Below are positions 1 to 21,580 of a stretch of DNA of 49,337 bases, piece by piece. Both the position numbers and the translations under genes were made by a program. Position 1 is the first letter of the stretch, and each line of letters begins with the position of its first letter. The stretch comes from Acidiphilium sp. PA (GTDB lineage: Bacteria; Pseudomonadota; Alphaproteobacteria; Acetobacterales; Acetobacteraceae). The stretch lies in NCBI RefSeq assembly GCF_026191915.1, contig NZ_JAIMBY010000021.1:1-49337 (forward strand), given 5' to 3'. Under the pieces are notes generated by a model. It searched no databases and was not told the origin of the DNA. It saw only the letters and a list, made by a program, of their open reading frames with translations.

Positions 1-136
1 TGGATCAACCGAAACCGGCGGCTCGCGAAGGACTTCGAGGCCACGATCGAGAGCGTCGAAGCCTTCCTCTACGCCGCGTCCAGCGTCATCCTGCTACGAA
101 GGTTGGCACGTTGATGAACCGATTCGAAATGGACTC
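1..136 (+). mobile_element. IS5-family element, 3' end (partial)
   Basis: The window opens inside a transposase frame (1-114) that ends in WINRNRRLAKDFEATIES and a closing LLRRLAR, the usual C-terminus of IS5-family (IS1031/IS427-like) DDE transposases. The element probably ends at 136: the complement strand reads GAGTCC inward from there, and the adjacent 137-139 (tga) would be the 3-bp TNA-type target duplication. The left end lies outside the window. It truncates the yhaN-like gene, whose frame runs into it. The family call rests on the C-terminal signature; the exact boundary is inferred. Confidence 0.75.
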
Positions 137-6700: not shown

Positions 6701-9611
6701 CGGCATGGTCGATCCGCCGTGCAGCTTCAGTTGCGTAGCCTGTCGAGAGGGTTGCTTCGATCTCACGATAGCGCTGTAGGCGCGTCGTCGCCTCACCCAA
6801 CTTCGACATCAATTCAGTGAATTGCGGTGCGAAAGCAAAGCTCAAATCGTGGCCATGAGCTTTAGGCAACAGCATGGCGAGACGTAGCCAAAGACCAAGT
6901 TGCGCACTGGTGTCGGTGATCGGCTCAAGACCAGTCGCGGCAGCGAAGCTCTCGCATGCTTGGCGCAAATTGCTTTCAGCAATGATGAACGCCCGTGCCG
7001 CTTCCACAACCGCGTCCTGCCAAGCGTTCGACCATTCCTGCTTCGCCAGATTGCCGAGTGCGGTTGGCACATCGAGGACTTCGCAGCGTGCGAGGTAGAG
7101 GCTCCGCACCGCTTCACGCATTGCTGCCAGTTCTACTGAACTATGATGACAATCGGGGGGAAAGACCAACCGCGGCGTCATCTCGGTCCAATCGCGCACG
7201 ACGCGGCCGATCGCGCCATGCAACGTCAGTCCGTTCGCATGTGGACGATGCAATAAGTTGACGATCCGGTTCAATTCGTCGCGCAGTCTTTTGACTTCTG
7301 CTGCTTCACGTACCCACATTTCGGCAGCCATCTGGTCCCGCGTGGTCCAGGCGACATCGAGTTGGCGCAGCACTTCGGTCTTGGTTGCTTTCGCCGAATG
7401 CAATTCCAGGCAGAACGATCCAAGCCCAACCGTCGTAAGTCGCCGTTGCACCACCTCCAACGCTGCCATTTTTTCAGCGACGAACAACACGCGACGGCCC
7501 CGGGCGAGGTTATGGGCAATAATGTTGGCGATGGTTTGCGATTTGCCGGTACCAGGTGGCCCATCGAGCACGAAATCATGACCCTCGCCGGATGCGACGA
7601 TCGCAGCAATCTGAGAACTGTCCGCCGGCAGCGGGATGAAAAGATCTGCTGGATCTGTACGCTGGTCGAGTTGCTCCGGGCGCGGAAACTCTCCCGTCGT
7701 GGGAAACGCCTCCTGACCCCGCTCAATCAGATGACGCACGACCGGGCTCTCCTTCAACAATTCCGCGCGATCGACCAAATCCTTCCACATCAGATATTTT
7801 GCAAAGGAGAACGTACCGAGCACCACGCTGGGAACGACCTCGAATCCCGTCATATCGCGGATTGCCGTTCGTACCGTAGTCCAGATTGCCGCAACATCGA
7901 TGCCGCTGCGATCTTCTGGCAACGCCCCAGCCAGAGCCGGTATGGTCAAGTCGAAATCCTGGCGCAACAGTTCAAGCAGCGTCAGATTAAAGCAAGCTTC
8001 ATCCTCGTGCCTTGTCATAATGACTTTCGACACGGCACTTTTCCGTTCAAGCCGAACCGGTACCAGCAAGAGTGGTGCCTGATAGAATCGTTGCTCAGTT
8101 GGTGATTTTCGCCATTTCAGAAATCCCAATGCCAAAAAGAGCGTATTGGCTCCACCCTCGGCAAAGTCAGCTTTGGCCTGGCGGAACAGTTCGATCAGCG
8201 AGGTGTCGAGCTTTCCCTCCTCGCCCTCGGCCAGAATCTCATTCCGCGCCAGCGCTTCGGTTGCCAGCTCGGTGCGCAGATTCTCGTTGGTTTGTGTCGC
8301 GTAGAGTTTTTCATCGCGCCCGCCTGGCTGCAAATCAGGCATCGCGACGATCCGGATTTTCTTTCCGTCGGCCAATTGATCTTCGAGCAGGGCCGGTTCC
8401 GGGCAGATCAATCGGATGAATTTGGCACTTGCCGGCACGTTGAGTAGCCGATTCGCAGTCGTGAGATTGAGCAATTTGCGCTGCCACTGCACAATGCGAT
8501 CGGAAGGACTAAGTGTCGCATCCGGCTCTAAACCCTCCGCATCGAAGTCCGGCAAATTCGGCGGCGCCTCCAAACCCTCAAACGCTGCGGATGCATCGGG
8601 CTTGGAAGGTTGGGACGGGTCAGCCATTGCGGCCAAGGGACGGATACGCTGCATCCGCGCACGAGCAATGTCGATCGCCATTTCAAATGGCGCTTCGGCA
8701 TCCTCGGCGAGCTGGCGACGTCCCTGAGCGATTGCAGCAGAGAGGCCGGGTGGGTGCGCATTGGCAGCGAGGGTCGTTTCGAACACAATCAACTCATCGA
8801 GGTCGAGTCGCCTGCGTAGGGCGGCAGCCTCGCCGGTTATCAGGCTCGGCATCACCCCGGGCTGCAACCATACACCGGTAAACGCATGGCCACGTGTGAG
8901 GATAATCATCGGATTCAGACGCGCCTGCTCCAGGGCTGCAGCGAACAGCACGGTCGTATCGAGGCAGGTCGCAACGCGTCCTTGCAGGATTGCGCCGGGC
9001 GATCGGACTTTCTGACCCTGCTGCTCGAAACTGGCCGGCGGTAACGCGTAGCTGAGCCGCAATTCGCATACCGCAGCCCATATAGCCGCCACCAGTTGCC
9101 ATACCCGTTGGCGCGATTTGCTTTCATACCCATCGATCGCATCTGGTTTGCCCGAGCGCCGCAGCACGTCCGATGCAGCCTTCAGAACCCGGTCGATCGC
9201 CGGGTCGTTCGGCATCACAAATGCTGGCAGCAGTTCCGCCATAGAGCCGATCCCGCCCCATTCGGTACGGGCGAGCAGATCGATCGGATATGACATCACC
9301 GCGAGCTCAGCTTCGTCCTCGATCAGGCGCAGCGTGATCGTCCCGGTTATGGCTTCATCAAGCACTCCCAGAAATGCGGCGTTAAGCGCAACATCACGAT
9401 CCATCACCTGTCGCGTATCGCCAGGGGCAAGATGAGAGAGTGCCCACATACGCGGCGCAAACACCGGGGGATCGGCGGTCAGCGTGAGCTTCAGGTTCTG
9501 GTGCGAGATCGTGCCCTGATTTACAATCGACAGCTCGCGCAACACCGGCACAGCATTTTGGTGTGAGGCAAAGCCGATTTTGGTCGCAACGATCGCTCGA
9601 ATTTCAATCAT
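3714..9611 (-). CDS. Giant DUF4011/SF1 helicase/Vsr-like nuclease/DUF3320 protein
   Basis: 1965 aa. Domain order: an N-terminal beta-rich region (1-115); a transglutaminase-like segment with GRVATCLDTTVLF (Cys216) and RGHAFTGVW (His242); DUF4011 (about 370-620, WQRKLLNLTTANRLLNV); and an SF1 helicase with Walker A GPPGTGKS at 684-691. The split helicase continues far downstream with VIFDEASQIAPWDA (motif II), GDPRQMPPTSFF (III), a QGDERDVIMLGVG segment and NVALTRAREEM (VI). A Vsr/DUF559-like nuclease follows (RIDLGIIHPD, GVECDGATYHS, RDRDKIR, LGWKLLRIWS), and DUF3320 ends the protein. Proteins of this architecture occur in defence islands. It starts 242 bp downstream of the RelE-helicase gene. 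All helicase and nuclease motifs look intact. Whether the transglutaminase-like part is catalytic is unknown. Confidence 0.9.
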   Translation of the reverse strand: MIEIRAIVATKIGFASHQNAVPVLRELSIVNQGTISHQNLKLTLTADPPVFAPRMWALSHLAPGDTRQVMDRDVALNAAFLGVLDEAITGTITLRLIEDEAELAVMSYPIDLLARTEWGGIGSMAELLPAFVMPNDPAIDRVLKAASDVLRRSGKPDAIDGYESKSRQRVWQLVAAIWAAVCELRLSYALPPASFEQQGQKVRSPGAILQGRVATCLDTTVLFAAALEQARLNPMIILTRGHAFTGVWLQPGVMPSLITGEAAALRRRLDLDELIVFETTLAANAHPPGLSAAIAQGRRQLAEDAEAPFEMAIDIARARMQRIRPLAAMADPSQPSKPDASAAFEGLEAPPNLPDFDAEGLEPDATLSPSDRIVQWQRKLLNLTTANRLLNVPASAKFIRLICPEPALLEDQLADGKKIRIVAMPDLQPGGRDEKLYATQTNENLRTELATEALARNEILAEGEEGKLDTSLIELFRQAKADFAEGGANTLFLALGFLKWRKSPTEQRFYQAPLLLVPVRLERKSAVSKVIMTRHEDEACFNLTLLELLRQDFDLTIPALAGALPEDRSGIDVAAIWTTVRTAIRDMTGFEVVPSVVLGTFSFAKYLMWKDLVDRAELLKESPVVRHLIERGQEAFPTTGEFPRPEQLDQRTDPADLFIPLPADSSQIAAIVASGEGHDFVLDGPPGTGKSQTIANIIAHNLARGRRVLFVAEKMAALEVVQRRLTTVGLGSFCLELHSAKATKTEVLRQLDVAWTTRDQMAAEMWVREAAEVKRLRDELNRIVNLLHRPHANGLTLHGAIGRVVRDWTEMTPRLVFPPDCHHSSVELAAMREAVRSLYLARCEVLDVPTALGNLAKQEWSNAWQDAVVEAARAFIIAESNLRQACESFAAATGLEPITDTSAQLGLWLRLAMLLPKAHGHDLSFAFAPQFTELMSKLGEATTRLQRYREIEATLSTGYATEAARRIDHAALNAEWIAASKKFFLFKGAVRKKVMQTLATVGGTSAPPDPAKDLPRLEAMAHELAALDGMTSALANVSSWKGTATDLNHLQAGVDVVEALRLATSAAASDLPALTQLRQTLSLLLSDGNDLLAPDGPICRAVGRLSDTAQDCESKAQIFIRGGELRDGETFAALRDSARAVISVARRLKPWTDWQRSRNEAIAIGLSPVVAAIESDQISPETAQSCFETAYAYWFASGEIDAEPDLRRFAATDHLDKVKAFRRLDHNLAALSVRYIKAKLCGLIPDKATASKGGGYGVLRHQLQLKRAHKPIRQLASEMGDAFTRLAPCMLMSPLSVAQYLPPDQALFDLVIFDEASQIAPWDAIGAMARGRQVVIAGDPRQMPPTSFFARKSDEGNDDGGADMESILDECLAAGVTQHSLTWHYRSRHESLITFSNHRYYENRLVTFPAPQTRPSAVSWQRVDGAYARGAGRTNQVEARALVESAVARLTDPDFIARGWTLGIITLNAEQQRLVEDLLDKARRENPALEAHFADDLAEPVVVKNLETVQGDERDVIMLGVGFGPTEAGSSTMAMSFGPLNAAGGWRRLNVALTRAREEMIIFTSFGPAMIDLNRTGARAIADLKHFLEFAERGPRALVTAVRGSVGDYESPFETAVARELGQRGWVVVPQVGVSRFRIDLGIIHPDRSGDYLVGVECDGATYHSAATARDRDKIRTAILEDLGWKLLRIWSTDWWVDKQGAADRLHRAIQQYLANDRAAVEAARYVGLAAESADEPATAALDTSSASISKVPNPEVEIAGIDSRDPEFSPARDVEFSRAVGKPSSISPRYRLADLTIFSEQLKPEQFYESTYDQTLSSLIEHILGVEAPISESSLIQRIARAHGFQRAGRVIRERIMRITRSSYHVTDVANEGTFVWQNSASASGWQICRRPDSADDIRLIDDIAFAELAAAANHIGSESDTIVEIARFFEVRRLSASARRRIEDALKHFLPRNNHHENARQSG

Positions 9612-9804
9612 TAAATCTTCCTGGTATCAATCGTCACTCAATGACGTCAGGTTAGCACGAAGCAGGTCGATATCCGCAACAGATTCAGAGCGGACCGAGC
9701 AGTGTCGGGATCGCGATCAGATTTACCCCCACATTTTCGTTGCCACCTGACGGCCGTTCAATCGCGCGTGAGGCAACAGGATTTTCAATTGTCTTATCCC
9801 AATC

Positions 9805-9820
9805 CCACGATCGATCGTGG
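9805..9820. promoter_or_regulatory. 16-bp perfect palindrome in the leader of the giant helicase gene
   Basis: CCACGATCGATCGTGG is fully self-complementary. It lies in the 242-bp gap between the RelE-helicase stop and the giant helicase start, about 195 bp upstream of the latter. A second hairpin, CGGCAT/ATGCCG (9830-9847), is just downstream of the RelE-helicase stop. It could be an operator for the giant helicase gene or a processing/termination structure. Evidence is symmetry only. Confidence 0.35.
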
Positions 9821-9853
9821 TGATCGCTGCGGCATCGATGAATGCCGTGTCAT

Positions 9854-11908
9854 TTAATGAAAATCACTGAGATATTCTGAGGGAGGAGAGACACCTGTGA
9901 GGAGAAGGTGTTCACGCGCCCGGGTGCAAGCCACATAAAGCAACCGGCGTTCCGTTTCGTAAATTTCATCGAGCTCGGCTTCGTCCGCGGCATCGGCAAC
10001 GCGTTCATCGAGCGGAAGCGTCCCCTCGTCGCACGCCATGACCACAACAGCGCGGAACTCGAGTCCTTTAGCAAGGCTCATCTGGGCCGTCATGATCTTA
10101 CCAGCGCCGGCCAAACCGTGAATGGCGGCTTGGGCTCGCGCGACAAGTGATTGCGTCCGGACGAACACGCCGATTTCATGCGCGGCAATGCCTTCGGCGA
10201 GCCAGGCCGCAACAGTCTCCCGAACGATTTCTGCCTCGGCGATAGGGCTCGCGACAATTTCGACGTTCGGTACTGGGCCATTGAATACCGAAACGACGCC
10301 GCGTCGTTCGTCCTCAAGCCCGTCAGTGTCGCGCAGAACTGTCGGTAACAGGCGATCGGCGGCGCGACGGATTTGCTGCGAGGTACGATAGCAGACTTTG
10401 AGCACGAACGACCGCCCGCGGACATCCACGCCAAGACTTGCCCAGGAGTACGGATGCTGGAAAATGCGCTGTCCCGCATCGCCGGCCAGAAAAAGGTTGT
10501 TCGCTGATGAGGGTACGATGGCCGAAAAGAAACGCAATTCAGCCGGGGCAAGGTCCTGAGCCTCATCGAGGATAACGTGTTCGAACGGTTTGGATGATCG
10601 ACCGGCCAGAGCCTCGGCCAGGTCAGTGAACACATGCGCCCACGTCGTATAGCGTTCCGACTCCAATGCTTCGCGCACCGCTTGGAATACCGGCCATAAT
10701 CGGGCACGCTGATTTGGACCGAGCTTGCTCTTCCTACCCATGCGCTGAACCGTGGTGTAGGACTCTGGCGTCTTGATCCCCCAGGCATCGATGACGTTCG
10801 TCCACTCGGACAACAAAAATCGTTCTGAGAAACCTTTCATGTTAGCAGCCGCCGTTCGTAATCTCTCCCGTAGGACGATCTCCGAAGCGATCCGAGGGCG
10901 CACGCCGTATTCCAATTGATAGAGTTGCTCGGCGATGCCGTGGAACGACGCTACGGTAATCCGCGGTACGATGCTGCCAGTCTCGGGCGTGAGCACAAGA
11001 AGTTTCCTCCCCAGCGCATCGGCGAGCGGTTGCGAGAAACTGGCCAACAAAATTCTGGCATCCGGATTGGCGCGCGCGAGGCGGACTGCACGATGCAAGG
11101 CTACAATGGTTTTCCCGGTCCCGGCCGAACCGGCCACCCGCGCGGGACCGGAAAAGGAGCGTTCGACCAGATTGCGCTGCGAAGGATGCAGAAAGACACC
11201 CCATTTATCCCATGGAAAAGCCAGAGCCTGCTCGAGTTCCTCGTGACTGACGATAAGCTTTATGCGCCGCAGCGCATCCGGGTGTTCGTAGGGATTGGCC
11301 TCAGCCGTGGCTGGAGCAGGGACCACAAGGCGGCCAGATACGGCATATTCGAGCAGGGCTTCTGCGGCTTCACCTGGCAGGTGATTGGCCAACGTCAAGA
11401 ACCTGTCTTCATTGGCAACTCGAACGTCGGCCAGCCAATCGGGCGGGACGCCCACCGAGAGGAGTGCGTTGTCATCAAGCGTAGCAAACGGGGTCGGGGT
11501 AACCGCTTTTTCCGCGGGCACGGGATGCGAAAGGGCGAAATCGAACGAGGGTGGAGGCACCACATCCTCCACGCGTTCGCGGATTTCGACAATCTGGATC
11601 GCACCCGTGCGCGGATGGGCTTCGATCCGTCGGCGTGTCGCCCATGCATACGAATCGTCGTGATGGCCGACATAGGCGAGCAACAGGTCAGACCCGGTCT
11701 TGTGGATGATGATACGAATGTCCAGATTGACCCTGACGGACCAGAAATTGGGGTCCTTCGATTTGTCGATACGGTGGAATTGCAACCCCGGCCTCGATGG
11801 ATCGACCTGTAGATCGAAAACCGCCGTCTTCACCGCCCTCTGCTCTTGCGCCGAAAGACGCGCGAGGGCGGCGGTGAACGCATCGGCGATCCGAAAAGTG
11901 GCGGTCAT
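9854..11908 (-). CDS. RelE/ParE-like domain fused to UvrD-type SF1 helicase
   Basis: 684 aa. Residues 1-95 read like a RelE/ParE-fold toxin: helical start, then HRIDKSKDPNFWSVRVN and LDIRIIIHKTGSDLLLAYVGHHDDSYAWA. A linker (100-235) leads to a helicase with Walker A GSAGTGKT (260-267), ILLASFSQPLADAL, motif II VILDEAQD (447-452), LFLAGDAGQRIF (III), YRTSQQIRRAA (IV), AKGLEFRAVVVMACD (V) and RRLLYVACTRAREHLLLTG (VI). All SF1A motifs are intact, so an active ATPase is expected. The RelE part lacks a separate antitoxin gene next to it, so it may bind ribosomes, RNA or DNA ends rather than act as a free toxin. It is the last gene of the operon-like run beginning with res. Function is inferred, not known to me. 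Confidence 0.85.
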   Translation of the reverse strand: MTATFRIADAFTAALARLSAQEQRAVKTAVFDLQVDPSRPGLQFHRIDKSKDPNFWSVRVNLDIRIIIHKTGSDLLLAYVGHHDDSYAWATRRRIEAHPRTGAIQIVEIRERVEDVVPPPSFDFALSHPVPAEKAVTPTPFATLDDNALLSVGVPPDWLADVRVANEDRFLTLANHLPGEAAEALLEYAVSGRLVVPAPATAEANPYEHPDALRRIKLIVSHEELEQALAFPWDKWGVFLHPSQRNLVERSFSGPARVAGSAGTGKTIVALHRAVRLARANPDARILLASFSQPLADALGRKLLVLTPETGSIVPRITVASFHGIAEQLYQLEYGVRPRIASEIVLRERLRTAAANMKGFSERFLLSEWTNVIDAWGIKTPESYTTVQRMGRKSKLGPNQRARLWPVFQAVREALESERYTTWAHVFTDLAEALAGRSSKPFEHVILDEAQDLAPAELRFFSAIVPSSANNLFLAGDAGQRIFQHPYSWASLGVDVRGRSFVLKVCYRTSQQIRRAADRLLPTVLRDTDGLEDERRGVVSVFNGPVPNVEIVASPIAEAEIVRETVAAWLAEGIAAHEIGVFVRTQSLVARAQAAIHGLAGAGKIMTAQMSLAKGLEFRAVVVMACDEGTLPLDERVADAADEAELDEIYETERRLLYVACTRAREHLLLTGVSPPSEYLSDFH

Positions 11909-12005
11909 ACAGGGTTGAGGCTGACTAGTGTCGCTGATCTGCCCCCATCCGAGTGGTTCAGGATCTGTTTTGGTGCCTTCCTCCTCATCTGCCGGATTCC
12001 CCGAA

Positions 12006-12017
12006 GTTATGCATAAC
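12006..12017. promoter_or_regulatory. 12-bp palindrome upstream of the RelE-helicase gene
   Basis: GTTATGCATAAC is a perfect palindrome about 98 bp upstream of the RelE-helicase start, in the only sizeable gap (124 bp) of the defence run. RelE-family loci are often autoregulated through palindromic operators, so this is a reasonable operator candidate. No promoter boxes can be assigned firmly. Confidence 0.3.
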
Positions 12018-12032
12018 CAGCATAATCCTTGA

Positions 12033-12605
12033 TCATATGCGTAGCAGTTGGTCGTTTAATCGGATCTCACCGAGCGTTACATCGAACGCGTCGGCAAGCC
12101 CCGCAAACCTTTCACAGAAATCGTACCAATATTTGGCCGATGTATTTTTTTCAAACCAATAATCTGGAGCCGCCAAAATAACTGCGCGGCGCAAGTCCGT
12201 ATGAGGTTGGCTCTTGGTGGATTTTGAAGTTGCCAGAAGGTGAAGAAAATACCTAACCATCTGAGAGTCATACATACCGTAGTTAATGCTAGCTTGCTCC
12301 TTAACTTCAATGTAGATTCGATTTTCGTCAGACACCCCGGAGCGTAGGACAATATCTGGCGTCATTCCGCCTGATATATCCATCAGTATTTGACGGCTGT
12401 AAGACGTTTTCCTCTGGCGATTCCAGTCGGAGTTATCCTCGAAGATACTATACTGAAAATCACCGCACAGCGATCCGATCGAACTCTCAGCCGTGACTAA
12501 GTTAACGGGAATTGTTGAAAGCAACTCACGATTGCCGCACGAAGCCTGAAGCTTCTCTACAAGCCACTTTTGCCACTTTGTTTCTGACCAGCGTACATCT
12601 GACAT
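12033..12605 (-). CDS. Small PD-(D/E)XK nuclease-like protein
   Basis: 190 aa, family not recognised by name. A restriction-endonuclease-like core is visible: GGMTPDIVLRSG (Asp84), then a beta strand IYIEVKEQ (Glu100, Lys102), giving D-(15)-E-x-K, with an acidic helix upstream. The C-terminal half has a strand RAVILAAPDYWF typical of such folds. It starts 10 nt after the 33-aa frame, behind a GAGGT ribosome binding site, so it is co-translated with the DUF6508 gene. The gene is visibly richer in A/T than the methyltransferase gene upstream, suggesting separate acquisition. It may be an effector nuclease of the cluster. Confidence 0.75.
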   Translation of the reverse strand: MSDVRWSETKWQKWLVEKLQASCGNRELLSTIPVNLVTAESSIGSLCGDFQYSIFEDNSDWNRQRKTSYSRQILMDISGGMTPDIVLRSGVSDENRIYIEVKEQASINYGMYDSQMVRYFLHLLATSKSTKSQPHTDLRRAVILAAPDYWFEKNTSAKYWYDFCERFAGLADAFDVTLGEIRLNDQLLRI

Positions 12606-12615
12606 TGTCTTTACC

Positions 12616-12717
12616 TCATTCGTGAAAGCTCTGCTGATGATAAAACCCTCGATTCATCCGCGCAATATTCTTATAGGTCCGGATCACTTCAGTTTCGCTC
12701 GTTGTTTCCGTGTCCAT
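12616..12717 (-). CDS. Possible 33-aa small protein
   Basis: An ATG at 12717-12715 lies 7 nt after GGGAGG, one of the better ribosome binding sites in this operon. The frame overlaps the last 29 nt of the DUF6508 gene in another frame and stops 10 nt before the PD-(D/E)XK gene. The product begins MDTETTSETEVIRTYKNIAR and ends GFYHQQSFHE. It has no recognisable domain. It could be a real microprotein or a coupling frame that delivers ribosomes to the nuclease start. Confidence 0.4.
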   Translation of the reverse strand: MDTETTSETEVIRTYKNIARMNRGFYHQQSFHE

Positions 12718-13156
12718 ACAAACCCTCCCGTCCCGCCTGCGCGAGCGTGTCGATCCGGCGAATGATGCGCAGGATAAGGCCGGCTTTGAACGCGTCCAGC
12801 AATGTGCCTTCGGCAAAGCGCTCCTGACGGATCAGAACCGTCAGCAGCCGCGCAAGCTCTTCCAGCGTGGCCTCCGCAATCGCGGATTCGTCACTTCGAA
12901 GTCGTCGTGCCACCGCTGTGCTGCTCCAGGCTGGCCAGTCGAAATGGCCTACGACCCATCCATTTTCGTAGGCGGCCGTAACAAACGCGCCGGCTTTGTC
13001 ACTGAGCGCCGCGTAGGGAAACGAGACGCTTCCATCCGCATTCGGACTCATAGGGCTCATCATTCCGGGGCCGAAATTCGGTGCCTCGAACTCAGGAAGA
13101 AACTGCGCAAGTGCATTGAGCTGTTGTGCATTGAACGGGCCTATTGTTTCAGTCAT
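12689..13156 (-). CDS. DUF6508 domain protein
   Basis: 155 aa. The C-terminal half matches the DUF6508 pattern: VVGHFDWPAWSSTAVARRL, then ATLEELARLLTVLIRQERF, AEGTLLDAFKAGLILRIIRR and a final helix. DUF6508 proteins are short helical proteins of unknown function. The gene begins 5 nt after the stop of the caspase-like gene without its own clear ribosome binding site, so it depends on coupled translation. Its position between a putative protease and a nuclease suggests a regulatory or adaptor role, which is inference. Confidence 0.75.
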   Translation of the reverse strand: MTETIGPFNAQQLNALAQFLPEFEAPNFGPGMMSPMSPNADGSVSFPYAALSDKAGAFVTAAYENGWVVGHFDWPAWSSTAVARRLRSDESAIAEATLEELARLLTVLIRQERFAEGTLLDAFKAGLILRIIRRIDTLAQAGREGLYGHGNNERN

Positions 13157-13161
13157 TGAAA

Positions 13162-13791
13162 TTAGATCAGAGCTTGCGGTTCATGAAGATGATGAGGTCT
13201 CCGACGATAGACCTGGAATTGAAGAGTGGTCACAAGGCCACTCAAATTTTCCTTCAGATACGTGCAGACGTGCTCGATAATTATATTTTCATTCGCATCA
13301 GGTTGTGCCTCTCGCTGCCGGAAAATTTGTTGCCAAAAAATGATGTCCAGCGCGGACGATTGTATCCAATCAACTTTGACACCATAACCTGCTATCCATC
13401 TTATGCTATTTGCGATTCCTGCGTCACGATTGAAAAAGAATGCCGCATTATTTTGGTTTCCAAATAAACATGATCCAAAAAATATACCTCTTATCTGTGG
13501 TCCCACTTGATTTCGGAGAATATTTCTAATTTCTGCTCTGGATATGTTGCTTACCGACCCACGGATGGCGTTCTGATTGCCGTGCGCGCCGATATAGAGA
13601 TATTTCTTACGTGCCCCTTGCCGGCAAACATGCTCCACAATTGCATGAAGCGCATCCCTATTTGCAAAATTTTCAAAATGATACCGATGAATGGATTGAA
13701 ATTCCATATCCATTAATAAATCAAAAAGCGATCGTACCGAAACATTCCTATTATTTTGCCAACGCCCTTCAAGAACAACCAGACCTGACAT
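13162..13791 (-). CDS. Caspase-like (DUF6642-like) cysteine protease candidate
   Basis: 209 aa. A caspase/CHAT-type dyad is visible: KYLYIGAHGNQNAI (His70) after a hydrophobic strand, and IRGIFFGSCLFGN (Cys108) after the next strand, 38 residues apart. Further pieces, GLVVLEGRW at the start and IAGYGVKVDWIQSSALDI after the Cys, match my recollection of the DUF6642 family pattern (LEG..W, HG, HFGSC, GYT..VDW..S). No separate sensor domain is present, so activation must come from a partner. It starts 12 nt after the methyltransferase stop, is AT-richer than that gene, and is followed 5 nt later by the DUF6508 gene. The fold call is moderately secure; protease activity is inferred. Confidence 0.65.
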   Translation of the reverse strand: MSGLVVLEGRWQNNRNVSVRSLFDLLMDMEFQSIHRYHFENFANRDALHAIVEHVCRQGARKKYLYIGAHGNQNAIRGSVSNISRAEIRNILRNQVGPQIRGIFFGSCLFGNQNNAAFFFNRDAGIANSIRWIAGYGVKVDWIQSSALDIIFWQQIFRQREAQPDANENIIIEHVCTYLKENLSGLVTTLQFQVYRRRPHHLHEPQALI

Positions 13792-13803
13792 TTTCCGTCC
13801 CTT

Positions 13804-16713
13804 TCAAACTTGAAAAACCTTCATCACCTCGTCTCCGAAGTGATTGATCACCTTCACCGCAATCCGCTTGCTCGCCGGTCGTTCGAATGGGCGCGATGTG
13901 TCGGAATACAGTGTGGCCCACGCATCCTCGTCGATTTCGGCCTTCAAAGCGGTTTTTAGGCTTTGATAGGGATCGTTGGCGCCGAGGAAATAGGCGTGAC
14001 GGACGAAGAAGCTCTCATCGTTATACGCGGTGTCGATGAACCAGGCGGCGATGCCGGCGGTGTCGTTGGAGCGGATATCGCCGGTGTTGGGGTCGAACAC
14101 ATCCACACCGTTCACCTTCACCCGAATTTCGGCGCCGCCTTCGTCCAGAATGTCCACATCTGGTTCGCCGAACACCACGAACATGTTGCCGCGCCCGGTA
14201 TTTTTCAGTTCGGCGGACATGTGCATGTCCGGGTTGATGCGGGCTTTCAGGATTTTAAGACTGCCGAGATTGCCGAGTTCGGTGGAAAGGGCATCAAAAT
14301 TGAAGGCGCAGGCAATCAGCACGTCGAACCGTGCATCTACAGCCTCGCGCGCTGCCATCACGATGTCCTGCCGTCCTACCGTACCGTATTCCGGCCCGAT
14401 CAGGATGGCGGCACGGCGTTCACGGCCGTCTTCGCCCTCGGTGAATTTTCCCTCGGCACCGACATATGTGCCGGGCCACGGCATCAAGCTCTCGAACGTA
14501 ATTCGATCGTGTTTTTTCTCCTGCTTCACGCCTTCGGACTTGAGATAGTCGATGACGACGGCGGAAAAATCCTGCCCGGCCTGGCTGGCATCGACCGGTT
14601 TGGCATCGCCGCGTAGTTCTTCCTCGCTAGCCGGGAGCACGCGGTGCGGCGAGAGGCTTTCGACCGTGAACGGGCCGGCGACGCGGACACGCGCATTGTC
14701 GGTATAGGGTTTGTCGTACAGATATTCGACATCGGCGCGCGCGGCGATGCTGGCATCGATCTCGCGCTGCCGGGCGATCCGCGCCGCCCACCAGTCTGCA
14801 TGCGCCGCGCGCGCGGCGGCCGGCGCGGTTTTCAGCAATTCGCGGGGGATTTGCCATTCCTCCCATCTCTGCCCCATCGCCGTGCTGAGCGTCGCGCGCA
14901 AAGGCTCCAGCACCGCCTGATATTTGTCCCAGATCTCGTCAATCACCGGGTTGTTGGCAATTGAGCTAAGCATAACGTGCGGTACGCGCTCATAGACAAA
15001 GCCCTGGCGGATATCGTGATGCACCGGTGTGTCAGACGGCGGCCGTTTCGTCAGTTCGGCTTCCTTGGCGCGGCCTTCACGGCTGTCGGCCAGCAGATAC
15101 CACGGATAGCGTGCAGCCATCAGGCGGGTGCGGGCCAGAGCGAGGGCGACGCGGCTGGTGTCCATGGTGATCCAGCGTCGTCCCCACTGCTCAGCGACGT
15201 AAGCGGTGGTGCCGGAGCCGCACGTAGGGTCGAGTACCAGATCGCCGGGGTCGGTGGCCATGAGGATGCAGCGCTGAATTACTTTCTGCGCCGTCTGTAC
15301 AACGTAGACTTTATCTTCTGTGAAATTTCCCGTCTGCGTATCAGACCAGACGTTTGACAAAGGAATTGCATCGAAGTCGTCTAGATATCGGATATACTGC
15401 ACACTTTTCTTAGTCTTCCAGATTCGCCCGGCGCGCCCAAGCGTTTTTAGACCCTTTGCGTCCGTTTTGAAGGTTCCCTTCCCCGGAGGAAACGTTTGAC
15501 CTTCAAATTGGAACTCTCGAACATCTCCGTCTGCGGCAGGACGCGAACTGGTGATGTTATCCGGCCGGAACACACGTTCCCCCAGATCTAGAGCTGACTG
15601 TTCCGCTGCCCCTAAGCGTCGGAACGTTCCATCAGATTTCATTGCCATGCGATACACTTGATCAGTCGAAGAGCCAGCAGCTTTCGGCTGAAATGGACTG
15701 TGGAATTTTAAACTTGATCCATACTTAGCAAACCAAATGATATAGTTTGTGGCGGCTGACAGAGTAGAGTTAACGCGGCCGGTTGTTGTTTGATAAGCGA
15801 TCTGGCTCACGAAATTTTCTGTTCCAAACACCTCATCCATCACAGCGCGCACGCGATGCACATTCTCATCGCCAATTTGGACGAAGATCGACCCACCCTC
15901 CGTCAGAAGATCATGCATCACCGTCAGCCGGTCGCGCAGATAGGTGAGGTAGGAATGAATCCCGTCCTTCCACGTATCCCGGAACGCCTTCACCTGTTCC
16001 GGCTCCCGCGAAATATCGGTCTGTTTACCGTCCTTCACATCGCGCGACTGGGTGGACACCTGCCAGTTGGAATTGAATTTGATGCCGTAAGGCGGGTCGA
16101 AATAGATGCATTGCACCTTGCCCTTGAGGCTTTCGCGCTCGGCGAGGCTGGCCATGACCTGGAGCGAATCGCCTAGGATCATGCGGTTCGACCAATGCTG
16201 GTCGTGCTGATAGAATTCCGCGCGTTGCTCCGGCGTGATGCCGTTGAAGTCGGCGAACAAATCCGGCTCAGCGGTCTCTGCCTCGCGCTTTTGCGCGGTA
16301 CGGCGTTTGAGATCGTCGATGATCGCCTTGGGGTGAATTTTTTCCTGGATATAGAGCGGTGGCACGTTGACCACGAGGTCTGACCAGTCCTGCCGATCCT
16401 TGCCACGCCAGACCAGTTGCGCATCGGACAGGGTCAGCGTGCCGGTTTCCGCAAGCTCGGCCATTTGCTCATCGGTGATGGTGATGCGCGCGCCGTTCCA
16501 GATCAACTCCGGCTGGCTCGGCTCCTCCGCCGTCCGCGTCTCCCCCTCGGCCAACGGCCGCGCGCGCGGATAATGCTGCGCTGGCCGCGGTGCGGAATCC
16601 TCATCGCGCCGAAAAAAACTCTCCATCTCGGCGGTCGGAATATTACGGCGCGTCGCCGCCTCATGCTTTAGCGCGTCGATCTGTTTGGCGGAGGATTTCG
16701 GTGGGCGGGCCAT
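13804..16713 (-). CDS. Type III-like Mod DNA methyltransferase (beta class)
   Basis: 969 aa. Amino-methyltransferase motif IV DPPYG is at 206-210 (QCIYFDPPYGIKFNSNWQ), before the SAM-binding motif I DLVLDPTCGSGTTAYVAEQ (about residue 490). This is the beta-class order used by type III Mod enzymes. LTEGGSIFVQIGDENVHRVR is another Mod hallmark. The long C-terminal extension (from about 540) lacks a known name and carries a DPNTGDIRSND segment. The start ATG shares one base with the upstream DUF262 gene stop (TGATG). It should methylate adenine (or N4-cytosine) in the target site and work with the Res subunit two genes upstream. At 969 aa it is longer than classical Mod (about 600-650). Confidence 0.92.
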   Translation of the reverse strand: MARPPKSSAKQIDALKHEAATRRNIPTAEMESFFRRDEDSAPRPAQHYPRARPLAEGETRTAEEPSQPELIWNGARITITDEQMAELAETGTLTLSDAQLVWRGKDRQDWSDLVVNVPPLYIQEKIHPKAIIDDLKRRTAQKREAETAEPDLFADFNGITPEQRAEFYQHDQHWSNRMILGDSLQVMASLAERESLKGKVQCIYFDPPYGIKFNSNWQVSTQSRDVKDGKQTDISREPEQVKAFRDTWKDGIHSYLTYLRDRLTVMHDLLTEGGSIFVQIGDENVHRVRAVMDEVFGTENFVSQIAYQTTTGRVNSTLSAATNYIIWFAKYGSSLKFHSPFQPKAAGSSTDQVYRMAMKSDGTFRRLGAAEQSALDLGERVFRPDNITSSRPAADGDVREFQFEGQTFPPGKGTFKTDAKGLKTLGRAGRIWKTKKSVQYIRYLDDFDAIPLSNVWSDTQTGNFTEDKVYVVQTAQKVIQRCILMATDPGDLVLDPTCGSGTTAYVAEQWGRRWITMDTSRVALALARTRLMAARYPWYLLADSREGRAKEAELTKRPPSDTPVHHDIRQGFVYERVPHVMLSSIANNPVIDEIWDKYQAVLEPLRATLSTAMGQRWEEWQIPRELLKTAPAAARAAHADWWAARIARQREIDASIAARADVEYLYDKPYTDNARVRVAGPFTVESLSPHRVLPASEEELRGDAKPVDASQAGQDFSAVVIDYLKSEGVKQEKKHDRITFESLMPWPGTYVGAEGKFTEGEDGRERRAAILIGPEYGTVGRQDIVMAAREAVDARFDVLIACAFNFDALSTELGNLGSLKILKARINPDMHMSAELKNTGRGNMFVVFGEPDVDILDEGGAEIRVKVNGVDVFDPNTGDIRSNDTAGIAAWFIDTAYNDESFFVRHAYFLGANDPYQSLKTALKAEIDEDAWATLYSDTSRPFERPASKRIAVKVINHFGDEVMKVFQV

Positions 16714-18581
16714 CAGGCTGCCATTCCGGTCTCATACGTGCCGATCAGTTCGGCTTCGCGTTCCTCGTCGCTGTACCCATCATCAAGATCGGGGGGAGCC
16801 ACGTCTTCCCGTACGGCGGATTTGCCCATGACGTCTTCAATCATGGCGAGAAGTCCGCGGCGACGTGCGTCGAAAAAGGTCTGGAAATCGTCCGCTCGGA
16901 GAAGATTGTCATCGATGACGTGCGTATGAAGGATCGAGTTCAGCCGATCGGACGCAATTGGTGGGTTCTGCGCATTGCCCTGTTCGAGCCGGTTCAGGTA
17001 GGCGGACGGACCCACGCCACCGATGATGCGATTGGTGCGGGCCGACAGGGGGGTCTTGTTGATGACACTATTGTAAACCTCCGGCCTGATATTCTGTTTC
17101 TTGCACCACGCCTCCGGAAAGATATGATGAATGTCGACATTCTCATCGAAAAAGACAGCCTGGTCGAACGGCTGGCCGGAGCGAAAATCCTGCGCTCCCT
17201 TGCGCATCAGCAAGGCATGGACGCCTTTGTAGGCGGCGGAGAGACGGCTTCGAAGCGTGCGCAACCGTTCCTCGCGGAAATCGGCGCGTTCGATTGTCTG
17301 CGGCAGAGCACCGCCGTCGAGCCACCGCCCCACATCGCGGATGTCGAGGGCAAAACGTGTCTCGACGGCCGAACCATAAAGCTCACCGAAGACACCGCAC
17401 CAGAACCATTGGGACAGACGCTGCCGGACAGCATCGTTTTCCCATTTGCCGCCCAGTTCAGCCAGGATGGCCGCGAGTGGGACGAGCTGGGTCTGGTATG
17501 GCAGATCACGGGCCCGAAAAATCTTCAGCCCATGGAGAAACTTCGCGGCGAGCTTATACCCCTGTTCGACGCTGTCGGCGTATTGCCGGTAGGCGGCAAG
17601 TGGTAGCTGGAGCAGACTGTTACGATTTGCGCTGATGGCCGGTGGTTCACGGCCCTCGGCCTCGGCGGTCTCCCGCACGGCCTTGGTATGAAGCAACGAG
17701 ATCGCCTGGAGGAATTCAACCGACTCAACATGCGCAAGCACCGGTAGCTTCACCAGGCGTTCGCGTCGCGCCTTCCAATCGTCGCGCAATTGGAAATTCT
17801 CAGCGGCATACATGGCTGTGACAAGTTCGAATGCATCGAGTGCTTTGCCGCCCGTATTGACCTTCTCGAATACGAGACAAACGGCTGCGCGGCTGGTGTC
17901 CTTTCCAAGCGCAATCACCGGGACCTGGTAGTCCGCAAAATTGTTGATCACCTTGTCCGAGAACTCATTAATCAGATCCAGGTGGTGCTTGCGGGCCTCG
18001 GGGGCGTGAAATATCCATTTAAGCGCGGCCTGAATCCAATGCTGGGATTTGAATATCTGATCGACCGGAAAATGAAGCGCCGCAAATTCTGCGTCCTGGG
18101 TCGACAGATCCAGAGCGACATCGCGACCGAACGCCCCTCGGATAATTCGGTCCTCGGGCACTGCGACAATTGACTCGCGCCGTGACAGGGTCGGGTTGAG
18201 AGCCGCCTGAATGTCAAAATAGAAGTGCAGGCGGACCGGCCGTTTCCGCGCCGTCTGCGTCAGCACAGGATCGCGCGTGGAGGTCGATTGGTACAGCGAT
18301 GTCATGCGTTGCTGTCCGTCGAGCAGATATGATTCGAGGTGCTTGGTAGCAGAAGGTGCGCCTTCGACGGGCCGGACAGCAAAAGCGATCTCGCCCGAAG
18401 CGTCGAGCGTCATCAAGGCCCCGACCGGGAAACCCTCCGACACCGACGCTAGAAGATCAATGATACGATCCTGGTCCCACACCCAGCCACGCTGAAAATC
18501 GGGAAGTTGCATTTTTCCGTCGTGGCAATCCTGCATTAGATCCTTGAGAAGGAACGGGTTTGTCTTGAACGACGTTGTCAT
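16713..18581 (-). CDS. DUF262 / HNH-like (GmrSD-type) protein within R-M operon
   Basis: 622 aa. The N-terminus is a DUF262 ParB-like nuclease/NTPase domain: KMQLPDFQRGWVWD (24-36), FPVGALMTLD, and the DGQQR motif at 88-92 followed by MTSLYQ. The C-terminal part has VDIHHIFPEAWCKKQ and INKTPLSARTNR, the HxIFP...N pattern of the DUF1524/HNH nuclease module. GmrSD proteins are type IV enzymes that cut modified phage DNA. Here the gene lies between res and mod, overlapping res by 4 nt (ATGA) and mod by 1 nt (TGATG), so it is a core part of this system. It could extend the target range to modified DNA. Confidence 0.88.
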   Translation of the reverse strand: MTTSFKTNPFLLKDLMQDCHDGKMQLPDFQRGWVWDQDRIIDLLASVSEGFPVGALMTLDASGEIAFAVRPVEGAPSATKHLESYLLDGQQRMTSLYQSTSTRDPVLTQTARKRPVRLHFYFDIQAALNPTLSRRESIVAVPEDRIIRGAFGRDVALDLSTQDAEFAALHFPVDQIFKSQHWIQAALKWIFHAPEARKHHLDLINEFSDKVINNFADYQVPVIALGKDTSRAAVCLVFEKVNTGGKALDAFELVTAMYAAENFQLRDDWKARRERLVKLPVLAHVESVEFLQAISLLHTKAVRETAEAEGREPPAISANRNSLLQLPLAAYRQYADSVEQGYKLAAKFLHGLKIFRARDLPYQTQLVPLAAILAELGGKWENDAVRQRLSQWFWCGVFGELYGSAVETRFALDIRDVGRWLDGGALPQTIERADFREERLRTLRSRLSAAYKGVHALLMRKGAQDFRSGQPFDQAVFFDENVDIHHIFPEAWCKKQNIRPEVYNSVINKTPLSARTNRIIGGVGPSAYLNRLEQGNAQNPPIASDRLNSILHTHVIDDNLLRADDFQTFFDARRRGLLAMIEDVMGKSAVREDVAPPDLDDGYSDEEREAELIGTYETGMAA

Positions 18582-21580
18582 TTGTCTGCTCCTAACAGCG
18601 TATCGACCATTGCGGCAAAATCTTCTTCCATCAACGCCCAGTCCCGGAATTCAGCAAAGCCCCATCGGCCGAAACCGCCCAGGTTGTTGACGCCAGGCAC
18701 CCATAGGTCGCGCGTGGTCTCCGCCTTGGCCTTGTCGGCCTCCGTGCGCAGCCCCTTCACTTCCAGAATGAGGTTGAGCGGTTCCGCTCCGCCGTCATCG
18801 AGCCGGACCAGAAAGTCCGGCACATAACGGCGCATAACCCCTCCATCGAGATAGGGGATTTCAAAGCCCATACCTTGATTCTTCGCATAGGCGATTACCC
18901 GCGGATGGCCTTCCAGCGTCAGGGCCAGCGGTTGTTCCCATGTGCTGTCCAGAACCACGTGGCTGATGTGCGATTTGGGCGGTCGCGCGCCGGTGGTCCA
19001 GCAGGGTTTGGACGTATTGAAATTGACATGGCGGGTTGAGCCTCGCGGATTATACGGGTCGAGTACCGCGAGCATCGGGCCGTCGCTCGCTCGGGTGAGC
19101 GCAATGTCGATCTTACTGGCTGCGCGCGCGAGTTGATCCTCGTACAGGATTGCGCCGATCGGGACGCCCTTGGTAACCAGATATCCTCCGTCGAGCCATA
19201 GGCGGGCGATTTTCTGGATTTGCGGAAACAGATGTTGCCGCGGCACGTTATCCTCATCGCGGAAATGATTGTAGAGAAGGTATTTCGCGAGATTGAAGCT
19301 GATTTCGGAGGGGCGGAGCCGCTCCATAATTTCGGGCGTGATGGTGACGCCCTGGCCAACAATGCCCTCCATCACCACTGACGTCGGCCCGATATCGGCC
19401 GGTGTGATTTCCAGCCTGCTGTCTTCGTTGAAACTGGCTTCAAGGCGGTCCGGTGGGAGGGCGCGCCGATAACCGCTGACGCGCGGAAATTTGATTTCCA
19501 ATGCCGCGCGATCCTTGATGGCGTGAACATGCGTGACCGGTTTGGGTTTGGTTGGCTTTGTCTCCTGCGGAGACGCCGCAAAATCGAACGGTATGCCCAT
19601 GATGTCGGCATATTCCACGTCGAACAGGCCGGTTTCCGGATTGAGATCATACGATTGGCGGCGCAGGCCACGACCGACCACCTGCTCGCAGAGCAACTGG
19701 GTACCGAAGGCGCGCACGCCGAGAATATGTGTGACCGTGTTGGTATCCCAACCTTCGGTCAGCATGGAGACGGAGACGACGCAGCGGATCTGTTCGCCCA
19801 GACGACCAACACGGCCGACCGTGTTCATCGCTTCACGCAACAGATCAGCGTCGCTGGCTTCGCCTTGGACGCTCGCGGCGCCGTCCCGCGTGGCTTTTTC
19901 GCGTTTAAACTGCGCGATCTCGGCGGCCGCAGCCGCGGCAAAGCCTTTATCGAGTGCATCGCCAGCTTCGATCTGGCGGGAATCGATCAATAGGGTACGG
20001 GGGCGCGGCAGCCTGCCGCCCTGATTGTCATAGTTGCGGAACAGTTCGAGGTGTCCCGCATGAAAGCTTGTGCGTTCGGTCTCATTACCGTCGTCACGCT
20101 CAAAGCCGGCGATCCACTCGAACACCAGTTTCGAGATGGCGGTGTTCTGGCAAACCACGATGAATACGGGCGGCACTTCGATCCCTGCGCGCTGCCATCG
20201 CTCGAATTCGCCCTCATAATGGCTGTACAGGGCATTGAGTGCGGTCTTAAGCGTGTTGGGAAGGTTGAATGGGCTGAGTTTTGCGGCTCCGGTTGTGGTT
20301 TTTGGCAGATCTTTGCCGATATGCTTCCACAAATCCCGATAGACGACGGTATCGGTCTGGACCAGATTGTCCGTGACGGGGACGCGCGGCAGCTTGACGA
20401 TGCCGCTCTCGATCGCGTCGATCAGGCTGAAATCAGAGACGACCCAGGGAAACAAATAGCCTTCCGCGTAGCCCGATCCCCGCAGGAAGAACGGCGTGGC
20501 CGAAAGATCGTAAACCGTGCGCACACCGTTTGAGAGTTTACGATCCAGCGCCTCGATACCGTTGATCCAGAGGCGGGCGGCTTCCTCATTTACGTTTGCC
20601 TCTTTCCTCTCGTCAGCGGTCAACGTGCCTTCCACATTGTCGCCGACTTTGTGGCGATAGCAATGATGCGCTTCATCGTTGATGACGTTGACGCTGGCAT
20701 AGTGAAGCAGCTTCCCACAAGCGCGCTGAAGCATCATCGTGTCGGTTTCGACGGTCTCCACCGGTTCCGGTGCGTTTCCTTGCAAAAAGCTACGGGAAAC
20801 CTTCGGCAACGCGAGCGTCTCGCGGTGTTGGAAGGCGTGATAGTTGGTGATGACGATTTCGGCGCGGCGGATGTCGGGCAGCATTTCAGGTGGAACCAAA
20901 CCGCGCGTTTCGTAGTAGTTGTTCGGGTCGCTTGGCTGCAGCACGCGGAGGCGATCCTTGATCGTAATGCCGGGCGCAATGATCAGGAAAGCGCGCGAAA
21001 AATCTTTAGAATCCTTGCGCGCGGCGTTCACCGCCTGCCAGGCAATCAACATGGCCATGACCGTGGTTTTGCCACTGCCGGTGGCCATCTTCAGGGCAAT
21101 GCGAAATAGGGCGGGGTTGGCTTCGGCATTGGCCGCGGCGATACGATTGAGAAAATCTTTCCCGACCTGGCGTTTCGGGGCCACCTCCGTCAACCAGATC
21201 ACCGTCTCGATTGCCTCGATCTGGCAGAAGAACGGCCGGGGACCGTCGAAATCTTCGCGCCGCCAATGTTGAAGAAGTGCCTGTGTCGCCGGTGAGACGC
21301 TCCACTTTGCCGGATCGGTCTGCCGGCGCCACTCATCGACGTGCCGACGGATGTCGTTGATCAGCGGGTTCTCTTCATAAACCTCCAGTCCAAGCGACCC
21401 CTGGGCAGAAGCGGCCTTTTTTCGAGTTGCCGGCACCGGTACGACAAATCGGGAGACCCGCCGCCCCGCAACAGGATCCCCACCAAGAGGCTGGCCGTGC
21501 TCATCGAGTGAATGGTGCCATTCCGGCACGCGATAAGGCGAGTTCAGGATCGGCCGTTCGTAAAAACTACTCGCCTTCAT
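18578..21580 (-). CDS. Type III-like restriction helicase-nuclease (Res; BPTD_3080-like)
   Basis: 1000 aa. SF2 helicase motifs: Walker A KMATGSGKTTVMAML (166-172), DEAH box INDEAHHCYRHK, motif III VYDLSATPFFLRGSG, and VVSVSMLTEGWDTNTVTHIL with QVVGRGLRRQ (motifs V/VI). Near the C-terminus PDFLVRLDDGG and NLILEVKGLR form the PD...ExK endonuclease of Res subunits. Length and motif layout fit the large type III restriction enzymes labelled BPTD_3080 family in databases (from memory). It is the first gene of the operon; the DUF262 gene overlaps its stop. No sizeable gap follows until 12,032, so one transcript may carry seven or more genes. Confidence 0.92.
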   Translation of the reverse strand: MKASSFYERPILNSPYRVPEWHHSLDEHGQPLGGDPVAGRRVSRFVVPVPATRKKAASAQGSLGLEVYEENPLINDIRRHVDEWRRQTDPAKWSVSPATQALLQHWRREDFDGPRPFFCQIEAIETVIWLTEVAPKRQVGKDFLNRIAAANAEANPALFRIALKMATGSGKTTVMAMLIAWQAVNAARKDSKDFSRAFLIIAPGITIKDRLRVLQPSDPNNYYETRGLVPPEMLPDIRRAEIVITNYHAFQHRETLALPKVSRSFLQGNAPEPVETVETDTMMLQRACGKLLHYASVNVINDEAHHCYRHKVGDNVEGTLTADERKEANVNEEAARLWINGIEALDRKLSNGVRTVYDLSATPFFLRGSGYAEGYLFPWVVSDFSLIDAIESGIVKLPRVPVTDNLVQTDTVVYRDLWKHIGKDLPKTTTGAAKLSPFNLPNTLKTALNALYSHYEGEFERWQRAGIEVPPVFIVVCQNTAISKLVFEWIAGFERDDGNETERTSFHAGHLELFRNYDNQGGRLPRPRTLLIDSRQIEAGDALDKGFAAAAAAEIAQFKREKATRDGAASVQGEASDADLLREAMNTVGRVGRLGEQIRCVVSVSMLTEGWDTNTVTHILGVRAFGTQLLCEQVVGRGLRRQSYDLNPETGLFDVEYADIMGIPFDFAASPQETKPTKPKPVTHVHAIKDRAALEIKFPRVSGYRRALPPDRLEASFNEDSRLEITPADIGPTSVVMEGIVGQGVTITPEIMERLRPSEISFNLAKYLLYNHFRDEDNVPRQHLFPQIQKIARLWLDGGYLVTKGVPIGAILYEDQLARAASKIDIALTRASDGPMLAVLDPYNPRGSTRHVNFNTSKPCWTTGARPPKSHISHVVLDSTWEQPLALTLEGHPRVIAYAKNQGMGFEIPYLDGGVMRRYVPDFLVRLDDGGAEPLNLILEVKGLRTEADKAKAETTRDLWVPGVNNLGGFGRWGFAEFRDWALMEEDFAAMVDTLLGADK

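Follow-up and report, generated by a model that had tools for sequence, protein, structure and literature searches.

The 49,337-nucleotide (nt) stretch of Acidiphilium sp. PA analysed here (contig NZ_JAIMBY010000021.1; hereafter the window) raises the question of whether seven adjacent genes on its minus strand (9854–21580) make up one fixed defence system or a constant core that carries exchangeable parts. In the order of their transcription, these genes encode a type III-like restriction subunit (RES), a DUF262/HNH protein akin to GmrSD, a type III-like DNA methyltransferase (MOD), a 209-amino acid (aa) protein, a DUF6508 protein, a 190-aa protein, and a helicase with a RelE-fold N-terminus (HEL). 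Our comparison with related loci favours, as the rather probable answer, a type III-like restriction-modification (R-M) operon in which a core of RES and MOD, as a rule with an ArmD-like helicase, offers two internal sockets to exchangeable genes, the first (slot 1) between res and mod and the second (slot 2) between mod and the helicase gene.

For the survey of this operon, the NF046055 profile was searched in four overlapping samples. Of 100 relatives, 24 matched at E ≤ 1e-3, with 10 above the cut-off; the class sample (387 genomes) yielded 27 matches at E ≤ 1e-50, the family sample (397 genomes) 42 at E ≤ 1e-100, and the phylum sample (397 genomes) 27 at E ≤ 1e-200. From these we took 87 stretches (L031–L117), leaving out eight matching genomes of the family and phylum sets as well as the weak hits among the 100 relatives; a few genomes contributed two stretches, and RES is identical within each of the pairs L077/L116 and L079/L087. 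Anchors were set on the stretches by tblastn with the window's proteins. Together with the window, the resulting 88 stretches comprise 64 with a RES at least 45% identical followed by MOD, 15 with a divergent RES, two with MOD preceding a RES at least 45% identical, six with RES and no MOD in view, and one with no RES. Of these 64, 38 have HEL downstream of MOD on the same strand, 14 lack it with at least 6 kilobases (kb) in view, and the other 12 are cut off. The constant part is res and mod, usually joined by the RelE-UvrD helicase (38 of 52 judgeable operons). Starting from HEL instead, a search with 16 aligned helicases matched 16 of 289 class genomes and, against viral contigs, gave 77 loci from the best 80 of 110 matches, with 26 of them at 48–53% identity. 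Of 31 stretches with a helicase at least 45% identical, 23 show 1.5 kb of upstream sequence, and 22 of these have MOD there; 14 show 7 kb, and 12 of these have RES.

Within this core, the additional genes occur at two positions. When an open frame of at least 60 aa is counted as an occupant, slot 1 is filled in 38 of the 64 operons and slot 2 in 30 of the 38 with HEL (both in 24, neither in six), with the numbers becoming 36 and 29 loci under a 95-aa limit. The distance from RES to MOD exceeds 300 nt in 39 of the 64, as opposed to one of 16 operons of reversed MOD-RES order (Fisher p 1.2e-4), these being imperfectly matched controls, as 14 of them represent a divergent subfamily with RES 31–36% identical. 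Moreover, of the 38 filled slot 1 loci, 20 (the window included) display a 4-nt overlap between RES and cargo, and 17 a 1-nt overlap between cargo and MOD.

Cargo families keep to their slot. We grouped 89 cargo proteins of at least 95 aa from 42 loci into 60 clusters, and all 20 multi-member clusters proved to be confined to one slot, whereas label shuffles averaged 7.9 such clusters and never exceeded 16 in 10,000 rounds. Such a shuffle ignores descent, and hence new loci were tested; here, 21 of 43 cargo proteins had a match, all 21 in the same slot, some of the loci being near-duplicates. All 132 cargo proteins combined form 74 clusters, with each of the 27 multi-member clusters single-slot, as are 10 of 10 clusters that span RES identities below 65%.

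At the same time, the occupants are exchanged between closely related cores. Where two operons have RES at least 75% identical, the contents of slot 1 disagree in 173 of 227 pairs (filled versus empty counted) and those of slot 2 in 134 of 140 (HEL in both), counts that exceed the true number of events since neither loci nor pairs are independent. The parsimony minimum is 37 changes for slot 1 (72-row tree) and 34 for slot 2 (rows with HEL). Between L136 and L143 (RES 97% identical), the DNA is 87–92% alike over RES, most of MOD, HEL, and parts downstream, and no similarity is found in slot 1 or in about 500 nt inside MOD, slot 2 of L143 being empty; the similarity ends and restarts close to gene ends. 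L135 and L137 (RES 99%) have slot 1 in common, but not the MOD segment or slot 2; L137 and L151 agree in both slots and have distinct MOD segments; and L034 and L051 agree in slot 2, with slot 1 of L034 empty. Cargo can thus vary between cores that are 91–99% alike, and exchange of the MOD recognition region is a separate event. That the genes merely ended up together in a defence island lacking special insertion sites would draw on the window's richness in defence-type genes (ProA, WYL, PDDEXK_4, and an AAA ATPase), and is scarcely credible in the face of two reproducible positions, slot-specific families, and DNA similarity restarting near gene borders; slot specificity is the ground on which we reject such chance proximity.

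The window's own relatives bear on the opposite notion, that of one dedicated seven-gene layered system. This could appeal to the window genes being contiguous, on one strand, and separated by short gaps or overlaps, yet close relatives (RES 76–81% and MOD 74–83% identical to the window) hold other cargo. L062 (RES 81%) has the DUF262 gene in common with the window, and its MOD segment and slot 2 differ. Plasmids of Sphingomonas aliaeris (L118) and Rhizobium leguminosarum (L119) align with the window across the whole of MOD, segment included (amino-acid identity in the segment 68–84% up to a frameshift in L118 and 36–84% in L119), yet their slot 1 cargo is a DUF3883 protein and an unnamed one, and their slot 2 genes are not those of the window either. 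The DUF262 gene itself occupies slot 1 in four of the 64 operons (the window, L061, L062, and L085), and also in the viral-contig loci L135, L137, L144, and L151 and plasmid locus L129; L067 has RES and part of DUF262, with MOD out of view. As for the caspase-like, DUF6508, and PD-(D/E)XK-like genes of slot 2, tblastn gave no match at E ≤ 1e-6 in the 87 + 41 res- and helicase-anchored stretches, some of which lack slot 2 in view. A dedicated seven-gene system is, on this evidence, very improbable, and as a conserved set it is ruled out by the neighbourhoods examined. A first-pass annotation of this DNA had proposed res-DUF262-mod-DUF6642-like-DUF6508 as just such a set, to be checked by a neighbourhood search, and this is where it failed. 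What can be kept of its extended operon is that the extra genes are no chance neighbours, as they sit at two set positions of a conserved operon that in other loci are used by other genes, many of them of defence type.

The slots hold a wide range of families. For slot 1, Pfam matches among 34 proteins (29 cluster representatives and five from plasmids) fall into 20 families, which include PIN (3), REase-ARP (2), PDDEXK_13 (2), and Bro-N (2), together with single cases of DUF559, GmrSD_N, HepT-like, NTP_transf_2, UPF0175, DUF3368, Gp49, PDDEXK_4, NOV_C, NYN, and DUF2971, among others. For slot 2 (35 proteins, 31 representatives and four from plasmids), the 25 of 34 families listed include AAA (2), Peptidase_S8, ABC-3C CTD12, DUF2326, SNF2, PIN, HNH_2, NACHT, SLFN_AlbA_2, and the window's own DUF6508. 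PADLOC, among the slot 1 matches listed (25 of 53 families), gives PDC-S04, S05, S09, S11, S13, S26, S31, and S70 and a type I specificity-subunit match. A cyanobacterial plasmid carries a UPF0175-DUF3368 pair between RES and MOD, while slot 2 contains an IetA-IetS pair in L052, a BrxH/DrmD/HmaA-like helicase with an unnamed partner in L046 and L063, and an AriA/OLD-like ATPase in L100. Nucleases, toxin-antitoxin genes, ABC-3C, and IetAS are all among the cargo types.

A rival explanation is passive carriage, in which the slots are only convenient landing places where cargo gains a promoter, spreads with core recombination, and works by itself, untriggered by the restriction system. IetAS, as found in slot 2 of L052, is a stand-alone system. 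The GmrSD-like family occurs outside the operon as well, on pISP0 (54% identical), in Nostoc after the DISARM gene drmC, and in L162 after a divergent RelE-UvrD helicase, and so do relatives of the 209-aa protein. BrxU is reported to be independent of its BREX neighbour (PMC12707154). However, unrelated cargo overlaps tightly with its neighbours at both ends in about half of the loci, and slot specificity is strict across distant cores, both of which go beyond what landing needs; the reversed-order relatives, moreover, are nearly free of inserts. We regard passive carriage as doubtful, though deserving of serious consideration.

The coordinates of the window's genes are collected in Table 1. 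Much of the spacing given in the first-pass annotation holds: res and the DUF262 gene overlap by 4 nt (ATGA), the DUF262 gene and mod by 1 nt (TGATG), and a GmrSD-like enzyme does sit between R and M, as the DUF262 protein there matches GmrSD_N. Three of the four further frames that it counted between mod and the helicase gene are supported; the fourth, probably a 66-aa TTG-start open reading frame (12616–12816) overlapping the DUF6508 gene, has no supporting evidence. Gaps of at most 12 nt are seen between MOD and the 209-aa gene (12 nt) and between the latter and the DUF6508 gene (5 nt), but not between the DUF6508 and 190-aa genes (83 nt) or the 190-aa gene and HEL (124 nt). A scan for promoters and terminators found a site count not above that of shuffled sequence.

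Table 1. Genes of the operon in the window and two of their neighbours.
Feature	Position	Strand	Length (aa)	Remarks
RES	18578–21580	minus	1000	type III-like restriction subunit; core gene 1
DUF262/HNH GmrSD-like protein	16713–18581	minus	622	slot 1 cargo
MOD	13804–16713	minus	969	type III-like DNA methyltransferase; core gene 2
Putative cysteine-peptidase-like protein	13162–13791	minus	209	slot 2 cargo a; His70, Cys108
DUF6508 protein	12689–13156	minus	155	slot 2 cargo b; PF20118, E 8.8e-38
PD-(D/E)XK-like motif protein	12033–12605	minus	190	slot 2 cargo c
HEL	9854–11908	minus	684	RelE-fold N-terminus and UvrD-type helicase; ArmD-like architecture; core gene 3
ProA / PDC-S37	3714–9611	minus	1965	DUF4011, helicase, MTES_1575, DUF3320; downstream neighbour, not core
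WYL-domain protein	23656–24681	minus		upstream; WYL E 1.2e-13

RES scores 1230 bits against NF046055 ("BPTD_3080 family restriction endonuclease"; cut-off 800), and in Pfam it matches ResIII above the cut-off and RE_endonuc slightly under it. As in a type III Res, a superfamily 2 helicase motor (GSGKT at 168, DEAH at 302) is followed by a C-terminal PD-(D/E)XK nuclease motif (PD...EVK from 921). MOD matches PADLOC MTase_III over its full length (1181.7 bits, residues 8–969) as well as Pfam N6_N4_Mtase, and its best PDB sequence matches are 6k0w (Mod) and 4zcf (EcoP15I Mod). Here, the type III order is found, with DPPY at 206, a variable region (~301–475), and DPTCGSG at 495. Mean identity to the window is 24–51% in this variable segment and 76–91% in its flanks (226–300 and 476–525); the segment, placed between the catalytic motifs, is probably the recognition region, to judge from type III Mod proteins. 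While the MOD motif order and the RES architecture resemble those of EcoP15I-type R-M, this operon differs in having RES first, a MOD of 969 rather than 644 aa (4zcf), usually a third, helicase gene, and two cargo slots. In the plasmid loci L118 (MOD at 9001–11930) and L120 (2742–5671), MOD is split over two frames at different break sites, for which phase variation, decay, and sequencing error cannot be told apart.

The DUF262 protein matches GmrSD_N (E 1.6e-24) and the PADLOC families PDC-M55C and HEC-05. It shares with the type IV enzymes GmrSD and BrxU a DUF262 N-domain with a DGQQR-type motif (at 88) and an HNH-like motif (HHIFP at 485), and differs from them in being placed between res and mod. 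As regards the C-terminal DUF1524/HNH nuclease domain of GmrSD, the motifs HHIFP and N..PLS...N are there, but Pfam gives nothing besides GmrSD_N at E ≤ 0.1.

The RelE domain that had been proposed on the helicase is upheld by the predicted fold, as residues 1–112 of HEL are modelled by AlphaFold with a predicted local distance difference test (pLDDT) score of 91 and adopt a RelE fold. With Foldseek, the best matches of this N-terminus are RelE/YoeB/YafQ-type toxins (E 4.7e-5), and nearly all of the 25 PDB chains at E ≤ 0.001 are titled RelE, YoeB, YafQ, ParE, or toxin. Moreover, HEL Arg65 and His83 align in register, though in a weak match (E 0.18), with the YoeB residues of the same numbers, which are catalytic. 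The C-terminal part matches Pfam UvrD-helicase, with GTGKT at 263 and DEAQD at 448. This architecture is like that of ArmD from ARMADA Type II, as judged from the published description of ArmD, where it is a RelE-UvrD protein whose deletion or K266A change abolished protection, and where infected ARMADA cells took up little dye and underwent no metabolic shutdown (PMC12458937). The Walker lysine of HEL is likewise residue 266. Because ArmD is essential in ARMADA, with little dye uptake and no shutdown, we would expect, by analogy, that HEL takes part in restriction itself and is not a suicide device. The partners differ, being BrxHII-like, PglX-like, and YprA-like in ARMADA, and RES (NF046055) and MOD here. 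Helicases go unmentioned in a survey of multidomain RelE proteins (PMC11980606). We also noticed a second RelE-UvrD clade (L158, L160–L163, L165, and L210), which is about 31% identical to HEL and directly follows proteins of about 2100 aa, the two of these that were scanned both matching DruE-type helicases; the L162 helicase is followed by a DUF262 gene with 40% identity to that of the window. This clade looks more like ARMADA, with possible cargo after ArmD.

Regarding the slot 2 proteins of the window, the "DUF6642-like" label given earlier to the 209-aa protein is not sustained, as it matches no Pfam family at E ≤ 0.1 and none in the other profile libraries scanned. Its His70 and Cys108 are kept in all three aligned relatives (plasmid locus L125, L130, and L131), and from this pattern a peptidase is plausible. 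A PDB profile search gave a best E-value of 0.52; relatives were found in genome contigs (two) and none in viral contigs. The 190-aa protein, read earlier as a PD-(D/E)XK nuclease, does have the motif (PD...EVK from residue 83), with no match in the family libraries and no relative in plasmids at E ≤ 0.01, in viral contigs, or in the PDB at E ≤ 1. The guanine-cytosine (GC) content of the 209-aa and 190-aa genes is 42% and 46%, compared with 58–59% for RES, MOD, and HEL, and these low values suggest their recent arrival; the DUF6508 gene is unremarkable at 58.5%. In a Mesorhizobium locus (L215), a DUF6508 match lies inside a gene annotated as GIY-YIG nuclease, and on a Croceicoccus plasmid (L216) another adjoins a HEPN protein and a ParDE pair, contexts hinting at a toxin-linked role; an SbcD-type gene adjoins the HEPN-DUF6508-ParDE group in L216. 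Neither DUF6508 nor BPTD_3080 was found mentioned in the open-licence PMC literature.

As to how the two-socket operon might function, RES and MOD would restrict unmodified DNA, the MOD segment would set the target, and the helicase would take part in restriction as ArmD does in ARMADA. The GmrSD-like protein of slot 1 probably attacks modified phage DNA beyond the reach of RES and MOD, and the caspase-like, DUF6508, and PD-(D/E)XK-like proteins of slot 2 probably serve as a back-up effector, such that cargo would broaden the defence or act once restriction fails. A layered defence of this kind, as first suggested for the block, would be in keeping with the cargo families and with what has been published on embedded defence genes. 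Homologous recombination between the core genes of related operons would be the means by which cargo moves, and would account for the confinement of each family to one slot. A bolder proposal makes RES-MOD-helicase a general sensor or trigger with two physical docking sites, slot 1 cargo docking at RES/MOD and slot 2 cargo at MOD/helicase, to be released or switched on when phage inhibits or outruns the core, with room for whichever effector suits a dock; this we consider unlikely.

Several points weigh against the two-socket operon, in addition to the non-independence of pairs and the imperfect controls mentioned above. Descent and recombination alone, without functional coupling, could produce slot specificity. 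Gene calls are open frames. HEL is missing from 14 of the 52 judgeable operons, seven of them in one clade, so that RES-MOD can occur without it; from the helicase side, L149 and L209 have MOD and helicase with no RES match in view, and L155 has a helicase without MOD. Slot 1 is empty in 26 of the 64 operons, and many cargo proteins belong to no recognised family. For the 209-aa protein, the structure model (from three sequences) is poor, with a pLDDT of 47, and the neighbours of its relatives in L130 and L131 appear by eye to be ordinary metabolic genes.

Beyond the operon, ProA begins 242 nt past HEL (NF058533, 2138.6 bits; PADLOC PDC-S37), and a ProA-like gene also follows HEL in L101 (56% identical) and L104 (35%), making the position after HEL a possible third cargo position. 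A WYL gene is likewise found upstream of RES in L101 and L129, and we infer that the window's WYL protein is a candidate regulator. Between it and RES lies a gene for a PDDEXK_4 protein (22605–23663, minus strand), which overlaps the WYL gene by 8 nt and, with a GC content of 39%, looks recently acquired. SbcD/YhaN-like nuclease-ATPase genes occur near the operon in the window (94–2549, minus strand) and in the S. aliaeris plasmid. Further upstream are a 1508-aa protein (27508–32034, minus strand) with no Pfam match and a P-loop-like GESGEGKT seen by eye, a possible STAND-type sensor, and a short tyrosine-integrase gene (Phage_integrase; 33861–34493, plus strand) upstream of the island, a possible trace of a mobile element.

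Defence genes inside the operons of other systems have been described before. The HEC and PDC families are reported to be of this nature and to have been found through guilt-by-embedding (Payne et al. 2024, as taken up in PMC12988326, PMC12255303, PMC12629846), and they are matched by the window's DUF262 protein (HEC-05 and PDC-M55C) and by other slot 1 cargo (PDC); the difference here is that two slot-specific positions lie in a RES-MOD-helicase operon. Equally, PrrC in EcoprrI and BrxU beside BREX have been described as back-up effectors (PMC12707154), along with DarTG2 between hsdS and hsdR (PMC12255303) and nucleases within BREX loci (PMC12839542), which are likewise effectors inside an R-M or BREX operon and differ in the core (type I R-M or BREX), the cargo, and the positions. 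In the open-licence PMC literature, we found no description of this core in which two positions are specific to their cargo families and a MOD segment is exchanged on its own. Thus, while embedding as such is already known, the two-socket type III-like operon may be undescribed, a claim lowered by Payne et al. (2024), which may include it.

For the biology of these operons, the RelE-UvrD helicase forms a link between ARMADA and a type III-like R-M operon, of which it may merit the status of a core component. The slots amount to a catalogue, in that their occupants in new genomes are candidate anti-phage genes, and the slot itself may indicate the use to which a gene is put. Moreover, where operons are almost the same apart from cargo or MOD segment, nature has provided swap experiments on whether there is crosstalk between restriction and effectors. 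Were the docking proposal true, the operon would be a natural modular immune chassis, in which the MOD segment, the slot 1 effector, and the slot 2 effector could each be swapped separately.

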